Assembly: GCA_034439655.1 (NCBI GenBank) | Contig: JAWXAU010000090.1 | Coordinates: 1 to 38,668, forward strand | DNA: 38,668 nucleotides | Direction: 5' to 3' | Source of the DNA: Bacteroidota bacterium | Lineage (GTDB): Bacteria; Bacteroidota; Bacteroidia; UKL13-3 | In this document: positions 10,287-37,793 of the stretch, one piece after another | Numbering within the stretch: the first letter of the stretch is position 1 | Layout: each line of letters begins with the position of its first letter | Notes under the pieces: model-generated | The model's database searches: none | What the model saw: only the letters and a program-made list of their open reading frames with translations | What the model was told of the DNA's origin: nothing | Program-made: the position numbers and the translations under genes

Positions 10287-10388
10287 GTGATAAGTAATAA
10301 GTAGTCAGTGGTCAGCCCGCCGCGGCGGGCAGTGGTCAGTAGCTGACTCCTATTGGCGTACGGCTTACCACTTATCACATCTTACTTA
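10287..10388. repeat. Low-complexity inverted-repeat element E1 at the end of the 1838-aa gene
   Basis: GTGATAAGT (10287-10295) pairs with ACTTATCAC (10370-10378), and TAAT/AAGTA-type words fill both arms. The centre holds a perfect palindrome GCCCGCCGCGGCGGGC. On the minus strand the low-complexity word TAATAAGTAAG begins with the stop codon of the 1838-residue gene. Positions 10307-10341 are repeated exactly at 21806-21840. Confidence 0.7.
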
Positions 10389-21805: not shown

Positions 21806-22041
21806 AGTGGTCAGCCCGCCGCGGCGGGCAGTGGTCAGTAATCAGTGATTCGCCGCCGCGGACGTCGTCAGCAAACTGCCTTCTGCTTACTAACCACTAC
21901 TTACTGTCTACTATCTACTACTTACTGTCTACTGTCTACTACTTACTGCCTACTACTTACTGTCTACTGTCTACTTTCTACTTTCTACTGACTACTACTT
22001 ACTGTTTACTACTTACTGTTTACTGTTTACTGTCTACTGTC
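21806..22041. repeat. Low-complexity inverted-repeat/satellite element E4
   Basis: The 35 bp at 21806-21840 duplicate 10307-10341 and contain the palindrome GCCCGCCGCGGCGGGC. AGTGGTCAGTAATCAG (21830-21845) pairs, with two mismatches, with CTGCTTACTAACCACT (21883-21898). From about 21895 to 22041 the DNA is an imperfect tandem of TACTGTC/TACTACT words. On the minus strand this reads GTAGACAGTAGACAG and starts at the TAG stop of the tetR gene. It occupies the whole tetR-paaA gap (21783-22043); no gene was seen. Confidence 0.75.
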
Positions 22042-22043
22042 TA

Positions 22044-22619
22044 CTATATTGGTTTCTTTAATCCGGTTAAAACAAAGTCTGCTAATTTTTGTGCTATTTC
22101 TGAGGGTTTCATTTTTCCTTTGGGGTTATACCATTCCGAAATCCAATTAACGGCCGATAGTATGGTGAGCACTGCAAAACGCTTATCGCCCTCCGCAAAA
22201 ATTTGTTCTGTTTCGCCGGTATTAATAATTTCTGTGAATCCTTGTTCGTATTTGTTACGGAGTATAATAAATTCATTCTTTTTTATTTCTTGCAAATGTC
22301 GCCATTCATGGGTGAAAACTTTAGAGGCATTGGAATCGGCACAAATAATTTCAACATGATTTTTAATCGCCAATCTCAACTTTTCTTCAGCATTAAAATA
22401 TATATCGTTCACTTCATCTATGGCGGTTATGAGTTTATTGCCCATGCTGAAACAGATATCTTGCAACAGGTCGTCTTTCGATTGGATATAAGTATAGAGC
22501 GAACTTGCTTCCAAGCCCATATCGGCAGCCAACTCTCGCATGGATGAACCCGTAAAACCTTTGTTGGCAAAGCGTTTACAGGCCATTTCTATTATCTGTT
22601 GACGACGTCGGTCTACCAT
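22044..22619 (-). CDS. TetR/AcrR-family regulator, candidate PaaR-type repressor
   Basis: A 191-residue one-component regulator. The N-terminal helix-turn-helix is clear: [20 protein letters not shown], then [20 protein letters not shown] and [11 protein letters not shown]. The all-helical C-terminal ligand domain is typical of acyl-CoA-responsive members, but its ligand cannot be read from sequence. I start at the ATG at 22619 (MVDRRRQQ). A 7-2-7 palindrome is centred about 12 bp upstream, next to the -7 element, so autorepression is likely. It points toward paaA, so control of phenylacetate genes is the natural inference. Confidence 0.88.
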
Positions 22620-29583: not shown

Positions 29584-29739
29584 CGTCATTCTGATCCCGA
29601 CACATCGGGATTCAATGCGAAGAATCTGTTCATAGCGTCTCCGATTCTGACAGATTCTTCGTCTCGTCATTGGAAATACACAATAATTGTTATATATTAT
29701 CGAATGTCGATTCCGATAGCTATCGGACTCAGAATGACG
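29584..29739. repeat. GTCATTCTGA-type dispersed element (full-length copy)
   Basis: The element is bounded by CGTCATTCTGA (29584-29594) and its inverse TCAGAATGACG (29729-29739). It encloses CCCGACACATCGGG, a GATTCAATGCGAAGAATCTG stretch shared with 37185-37203, and the palindrome CCGATAGCTATCGG (29713-29726). It lies between convergent genes. Its right end overlaps the last codons of msrB and supplies that gene's TGA. Confidence 0.7.
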
Positions 29740-30142: not shown

Positions 30143-30178
30143 ATAATATATAACAAGAGTTTTGGTTGTTTGGTTTTT

Positions 30179-30311
30179 ATACCGACACTCAATATATAAT
30201 AGTCCAAAAGAAAGGACTAATCCCGAATGCTTTCGGGATGTAGTTCGGCATTACCATTCTACAAACCAATCCGCCACAGGTGGAGAACTATTTTAGTTTA
30301 AGAATTGGTAT
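30179..30311. mobile_element. MITE copy A
   Basis: A 133-bp element that is nearly identical to 37369-37487. It starts ATACCGACACTCAA and ends TTAAGAATTGGTAT, giving imperfect terminal inverted repeats (ATACC.A). Inside are nested inverted repeats: TAGTTC (30241-30246) / GAACTA (30285-30290) and an internal TCCCGAA/TTTCGGGA hairpin. It has no coding capacity. Relative to copy B it carries 15 extra bp in the TCCCGAA arm. Confidence 0.8.
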
Positions 30312-30465
30312 TATATATGCGTTAGGAAGGATTAATGCTCTTGTTCCGATAGCTATCGGGAGTGTGTTTTCACCAACCACAATCGTAATTATTTCTCGAC
30401 AAAATAAACGGTTTCGGTTTATATATACGAAAGGAAGGATTTTTCAGATTTGCTATTATACAATA
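30312..30465. other. Non-coding gap with one palindrome
   Basis: With the MITE this gap makes the 30143-30465 region gene-free. It holds the palindrome CCGATAGCTATCGG (30347-30360), identical to 29713-29726, and a repeated GGAAGGATT word. No toxin gene for the neighbouring antitoxin is present here. Confidence 0.5.
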
Positions 30466-37161: not shown

Positions 37162-37220
37162 GTCTTTCTGATCCGATCCATCGGGATTCAATGCCAAGAA
37201 TCTGTTAAACCCAGAGACGA
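37162..37220. repeat. GTCATTCTGA-type dispersed element (partial copy)
   Basis: CATCGGGATTCAATGC and AAGAATCTGTT repeat the central part of the element at 29584-29739 with one mismatch between them (G to C). The left end CGTCTTTCTGATCC is a degenerate CGTCATTCTGATCC. No right terminus is present, so the copy is truncated. Confidence 0.6.
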
Positions 37221-37241: not shown

Positions 37242-37757
37242 CTATATACTTTGTACTTCCTCGTCTTCAGCAAAAGTTAGTATCATACCATTAAAATCTT
37301 GTATAGTAAATTCGGTGGCATCATAAAATGTTTTTTCGAGTCCCTTTAATACTTTGGCAAATTGTTTTATACCGAAACTCAATATATAATAGTCCAAAAG
37401 AAAGCTTTCGGGATGTAGTTCGGCATTACCATTCTACAAACCAAATCCGCCACAGGCGGAGAACTATTTTAGTTTAAGAATTGGTATTACTTCTTCAAAA
37501 AAGTCTCGAATTTTTGTTGTTCGGATATATAATAATAGAGGTCCACTGTTTTGTTCTCTGCTTAGTTCAGGCAGGTATTTGCCTAGGCTATCAAAAGTTT
37601 GAAACATGACAGTAACCTTTTCGCAAACCATCATTACCCACTCGTGGTCGGAAGTGTATGGAACGGCTATGGATAGCTGGAATCCGAGTTTTTGGTAGAA
37701 TGAAATTGTAGTTGAAAGGTCGTTTACAAAAATATTGGGATCTAAACTTTGGATTCG
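37242..37757 (-). pseudogene. VOC/glyoxalase-family gene interrupted by a MITE
   Basis: Minus-strand frame: RIQSLDPNIFVNDLSTTISF, YQKLGFQLSIAVPY, HEWVMMVCEKVTVMFQTF, GPLLLYIRTT, KIRDFFEEV, then MITE copy B, then KQFAKVLKGLEKTFYDATEF and TIQDFNGMILTFAEDEE. Without the 119-bp insert the two halves join in frame (E-E-V-I-K-Q) into a normal ~130-residue vicinal-oxygen-chelate protein (glyoxalase/bleomycin-resistance type). No ATG is visible at the expected start, so the 5' end is uncertain or also decayed. The last residues (VQSI) come from a low-complexity AAAGTATATAG word. With iscA, the MITE and the repeats it fills the 37156-37793 gap. Confidence 0.85.
37369..37487. mobile_element. MITE copy B, inserted in the VOC-family gene
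   Basis: A 119-bp element starting ATACCGAAACTCAA and ending TTAAGAATTGGTAT. It matches copy A (30179-30311) apart from a 15-bp deletion, a 1-bp insertion and a few substitutions. The host gene reads through in frame if the element plus one AT (or TAT) is removed, so a 2-3 bp target duplication is the simplest reading. No open frame; it must have been moved by a transposase encoded elsewhere. Confidence 0.85.
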
Positions 37758-37793
37758 GTAAATATAGCAAGCAATAATATAATTTTACAACAA

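Follow-up and report, generated by a model that had tools for sequence, protein, structure and literature searches.

The window analysed here, a stretch of 38,668 nucleotides that forms contig C90 of a 3.5-Mb, 205-contig Bacteroidota genome, carries a VOC/glyoxalase-like gene split by a MITE with TACC...GGTA ends, and the same genome holds an IS630-type element with similar ends. We propose that the MITE is a non-autonomous element made of two adjacent palindromic modules, that a cut-and-paste event at TTA placed it in the VOC gene, and that the enzyme was most likely an IS630-family transposase of the DD31E subgroup, which would act in trans and use a 3-bp stagger at TWA when joining the element to its target. 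To this explanation as a whole we assign a probability of about 0.85.

Results

The VOC/glyoxalase-like gene (37242..37757, minus strand) is a pseudogene whose frame meets a stop within the insert and resumes beyond it. Its homologue in the same-genus genome G001 is uninterrupted, with 75% protein identity, and reads GAAGAAGTAAGTAAGTTTGCC (E-E-V-S-K-F-A) at the corresponding site. In alignment, the window gene is longer than this homologue by exactly 120 bp, that is, by the 117-bp MITE copy (TACC...GGTA, 37370..37486, plus strand) and one 3-bp unit of the TTA read on both of its sides (37367..37369 and 37487..37489); removal of the 120 bp leaves E-E-V-K-Q-F-A. The copy at 37.4 kb is a real insertion that splits the gene, and the intact gene of the congener bears out a reading made earlier from the window sequence alone, which had described a MITE interrupting a glyoxalase/VOC gene with a readable empty site and had advised looking for the uninterrupted gene in relatives. 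Both copies that this sequence-only reading had placed in the window (119 bp at 37369-37487 and 133 bp at 30179-30311) exist at those sites, but the ends had to be corrected to TACC/GGTA, which makes the first element 117 bp; the AT/TAT duplication it had proposed is replaced by the 3-bp TTA, and its E-E-V-I-K-Q joint, obtained by removing 117 bp, stays in frame but exceeds the G001 reading by one codon. A second lesion is seen at the start codon position (window 37750-37760), which is ATC here and ATG in G001, and we infer that the gene is probably non-functional.

At locus L013, a 133-bp copy splits a membrane-protein gene. When 133 + 3 bp are taken out, this gene reads FRVYYILFYYAGVDYAYNYE, with 20 codons colinear with FRVYHILFYLGGADHVYNYE of the congener G002; the restored stretch matches G002 at 88% and G001 at 84%, and the G001 stretch also comprises 20 codons (a count made by eye from the DNA alignment). 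As read from these alignments, the empty site follows the same element-plus-3-bp arithmetic against both congeners, and the MITE family has broken at least two genes.

The MITE is a composite, with palindromic module A lying next to palindromic module B and each folding with alternative hairpin loops. In the VOC-gene copy, HMM matches and folding place module A at 37370..37424 and module B, with its CCGCC..GGCGG loop and the terminal repeat GTTTAAGAATTGGTA at its end, at 37428..37486, while the left terminal repeat (A-left, TACCGAAACTCAATATATAATAGTCCAA) occupies 37370..37397, all on the plus strand. Across the family, module A extends from TACCGAAACT to AGTTCGGCA and module B from TACCATTCTACAAAC to GTTTAAGAATTGGTA; the modules also form ABB, AAB and AA arrays, and A-only and B-only copies occur. 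The A loops (n = 64) include 27 of the 'GAATGC' form, 23 short ones and 10 long ones (ATAATTAT), and the B loops are CCGCC..GGCGG in 53 cases and sometimes AAAATAGTC palindromes. The terminal inverted repeats read TACCGA../..TTGGTA, the predicted hairpins are strong (z about -5), GTAG/CTAC lies at the centre, and an Rfam search of the window found no RNA family at the MITE locus.

The second copy in the window, located by sequence and genome search, is intergenic (30180..30310, plus strand, 131 bp from TACC to GGTA), has the full A arm, and is also flanked by TTA on either side (30177..30179 and 30311..30313). Aligned with each other, the two window copies differ by two substitutions, a single 1-bp indel and a gap of 15 bp in the A hairpin. 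Recent mobility had been deduced from the 15-bp difference; because the arm deletion of the VOC-gene copy is also present at loci L036 and L077, it marks a subfamily and is not private to the window pair, and the deduction loses its support.

Other repeats were observed in the window. A 34-nt repeat (CCGACACATCGGGATTCAATGCGAAGAATCTGTT, 91%) lies in intergenic DNA close to both MITE copies (29597-29630 and 37173-37206), and an identical 35-bp palindromic repeat (AGTGGTCAGCCCGCCGCGGCGGGCAGTGGTCAGTA) is found at 10307-10341 and 21806-21840, the 16 bp of its core turning up again in the sampled genome. A minisatellite of ACTACTTACTGTCT-like 7/14/21-bp units occupies 21854-22060, and a Flavo-1 RNA (RF01705; 64 bits, over the gathering score) lies at 336-428 on the minus strand.

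A search of the genome recovered at least 40 MITE copies with 87-100% identity, nearly all full-length, so that the further copies expected from the window sequence exist and the identification as a MITE holds, with a multi-copy family, terminal inverted repeats and a target duplication. Because a 17-bp core pattern with up to three mismatches occurs at 483 sites (263+220) against 154 (66+88) for the reversed control pattern, we estimate roughly 300 copies genome-wide, a figure built from searches and sampled stretches of the genome. Copies measure 112-162 bp and lack a transposase gene, and 63 distinct ones were read with both ends recognisable; most are clear of long reading frames, and among 60 copies 8 join a frame longer than 360 nt. 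Several contigs begin inside a copy, which suggests that the family broke the assembly. Since the main A-type copies differ by a median of 7% in pairwise comparison, the family does not appear to be the product of one very recent burst. The full element is absent at E<=1e-3 from 57 related genomes, two of them of the same genus, the sole weak match being a 21-bp palindrome in G034, and the exact 22-bp core had no match in genome_contigs or viral_contigs, where the window's own genome was possibly excluded. Within the genome set searched, the family was found only in this species; it is a new family of a known kind and an ordinary genome parasite.

The triplets directly outside TACC...GGTA were compared in the 63 copies, giving 23 cases of TTA/TTA, 19 of TAA/TAA, 14 of TWA on both sides with a discordant middle base (TAA/TTA or TTA/TAA) and 7 others. 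Identical triplets thus flank 42 of 63 copies, whereas 28 would be expected from permutation (p=4e-4); right flanks were shuffled among copies in 10,000 permutations, and more than 42 matches were never reached. Flank identity over exactly 2 bp accounts for 10% and over exactly 4 bp for 2% of these copies. Judged from the flanks, the target duplication of the MITE is 3 bp long and of the form TWA, and our guess is that the discordant pairs arose by recombination between copies or by mutation.

Four family searches of the genome for transposases left one candidate with matching ends. In this candidate, contig C91 ends with the IS630-type gene and C5 bears the right end of the element. The gene is the only one of the IS630 family that the family model found in the genome, although contig breaks could have hidden an intact copy; its product scores 83 bits with DDE_3 (PF13358) and 115 bits with NF033545 (cut-off 100), both above cut-off. 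The ends of this element are TACCATTACCTATTACGTTTTAGTCCAA and, on the right, TACCATTACTCAATATGTTTTAGTCCAA, and the MITE A-left repeat is identical to the latter at 22 of 28 positions, the two sharing TAGTCCAA in register. The same comparison at the 3,419 TACC sites of a 413-kb portion of the genome gave scores of at least 23 at 36 sites and of at most 20 at all others; the 36 were assumed to be MITE copies without a one-by-one check. The common form of the B end agrees with the IS630 end at only 14-16 of 28 positions and another form (L089) at 19-21. Because an IS630 element with matching ends resides in the same genome, the earlier suggestion of an IS630-family DDE transposase is supported, and its advice to look for an autonomous element with similar termini was borne out. 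We infer that the MITEs were probably moved by this very enzyme and not by a relative since lost. The two parts of the element lie on different contigs, and its GAA/GAA flanks possibly do not belong to one insertion.

In addition, another IS630 left end (TACCATTACTTAATACACATTAGTCCAA), which is diverged and starts with TACC, occurs within MITE ends at two places (C121:21-110 and C148:10884-11038); on C121 it follows immediately upon MITE left-end sequence (..ATATATAA; ..CAATATATAA). A decayed IS630 transposase remnant (YSPQLNLAEKTWW) was also seen immediately upstream of another MITE copy (L078, 15420-15530).

The transposase of the genome is encoded in two frames, and A7 runs, one of them at 71 nt, lie upstream of its catalytic QDE motif. 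Because 36 of 43 relatives likewise have a run of A7 or longer within 220 nt upstream of this motif, usually 71 nt away, programmed frameshifting at the A7 run is suggested, and the DD31E transposase is probably expressed in this way.

We fetched 80 IS630 relatives from other species, of which 30 had ends that could be paired automatically. Identical 3-bp flanks (TTA, TAA, TCA or GTA) were present in 22 of these 30, against a permutation mean of 9.6 (p<5e-5), although L132, among the 22, is probably a chance pairing of ends. The flanks are TCA/TCA in L098, and plasmid members show TAA in Nostoc, TTA in Sinorhizobium (S. meliloti), TCA in Thermus and TTA in Sphingomonas. Of 58 motifs read, 57 have a D-E spacing of 31 residues and not the 34 of DD34E elements; the searches also returned other IS630 proteins, and these have 34-36, except for a DGAGWH-type branch that also has 31. 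One DD34E element with clean ends (L200), a single and thin control, shows TA only. The resident element, itself split between contigs, and its relatives in Bacteroidota, Cyanobacteria, Alphaproteobacteria and Thermus thus appear to duplicate 3 bp (TWA/TNA) and not TA, in line with the MITE empty sites.

Discussion

The textbook description of IS630, backed by in vitro work (PMC2170065), is that these elements duplicate TA, and the MITE could accordingly be delimited as CC...GG with a TA dinucleotide duplication, as in ISY100 and Tc1/mariner. Any TACC/GGTA element necessarily shows TA at either edge, the insertions of ISY100 are almost all at TA (PMC2170065), and the behaviour of L200 agrees with such a rule. 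However, it leaves the matching outer triplets of both the MITE copies and the IS630 relatives unexplained, and it predicts a gain of 115 bp in the VOC gene or 131 bp in the L013 gene, which would break both frames, whereas length and frame agree with the congeners, in both genes, only when the element plus 3 bp is removed. On the two empty sites and the flank statistics we rejected a TA duplication, and we consider this explanation very improbable.

A 3-bp TWA-like target is typical of IS5/PIF-Harbinger-type enzymes, and the MITE has such a duplication, so an IS5/ISL2-like (DDE_Tnp_4) transposase could be the mobiliser; ends of a DDE_Tnp_4 gene are indeed present in the genome, apparently abutting TWA triplets. 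These ends (AGACCTCTTTCATAATT) are unrelated to those of the MITE (TACCGAAACTC), for which reason the element was rejected as partner, the full IS5 model NF033580 had no match in the genome, and it is the IS630 ends that match the MITE; we consider this enzyme very improbable. We also give a very low probability to a third reading, in which the repeat is REP/REPIN-like or a regulatory RNA and owes its spread to a Y1/RAYT transposase or to recombination, and not to a DDE enzyme. The strong hairpins, the abundance of copies, their position mostly outside long reading frames and the central GTAG/CTAC would suit such a repeat, but it does not account for the target duplications and the terminal-repeat match, and the locus matched no Rfam family. 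The preferred reading remains mobilisation by the IS630-type enzyme, probably with a 3-bp stagger.

Other transposable elements accompany the MITE in this genome. The IS5/ISL2-like element (L092 on C19, 1-213, and L093 on C168, near its end), the ends of which also occur in L029 and L064, likewise appears to target TWA and is itself inserted into MITE copies. The PF01609 matches were set aside, as their ends do not match: that on C95 is an IS1182-like fragment, and that on C83 (L088, about 430-1862) is an IS4-like element whose transposase gene is broken and which is itself inserted in the B hairpin of a MITE copy, with a duplication of apparently about 6-7 bp (CCACAG).

Target-duplication length is one defining feature of transposon superfamilies. 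We think it rather probable that DD31E IS630 elements form a widespread subgroup (Bacteroidota, Cyanobacteria, Alphaproteobacteria and Deinococcota) with TAC[CG] ends and a 3-bp TNA stagger, in which the rule that IS630 duplicates TA fails; if so, the ends of such elements and of their MITEs may often be misannotated. Our literature search found no paper treating a 3-bp duplication as a property of an IS630 subgroup, and ISTth6 is given 2 bp in a Thermus survey (PMC6352166). The combination of such a subgroup with a MITE expansion in one species, which offers many insertion sites and empty sites in congeners, makes the stagger directly testable. This by-product of the analysis is moderately interesting, and more so than the MITE itself.

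Among known systems, RUP is reportedly tied by its ends to a resident insertion sequence, IS630-Spn1. Nezha of cyanobacteria has been attributed to ISNpu3-like elements (PMC3049150). Both resemble the present MITE in being short, non-coding and hairpin-forming, with terminal inverted repeats similar to those of a resident insertion sequence, and the present MITE probably differs from them in its sequence family, 3-bp TWA duplication and two-module build. ISDrpg7/8 of Deinococcus radiopugnans share with the resident element an IS630-family transposase, a terminal inverted repeat starting with TAC (TACGGACTCCGATTAA) and 3-nt direct repeats (TGA/TAA/TCA), so that a 3-bp IS630 duplication has already been noted once in passing; the passages on these elements mention no MITE and do not frame the repeats as an exception to the TA rule (PMC10017437). 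ISY100 has the same transposase family and presumably the same cut-and-paste logic as the partner element, but its TA target and TA duplication were tested in vitro (PMC2170065). Non-TA duplications likewise occur elsewhere in the IS630-Tc1-mariner group, in Fot (TAA) and Sailor (TATA); Fot belongs to the pogo branch and Sailor is DD82E, and neither is a member of the bacterial DD31E subgroup.
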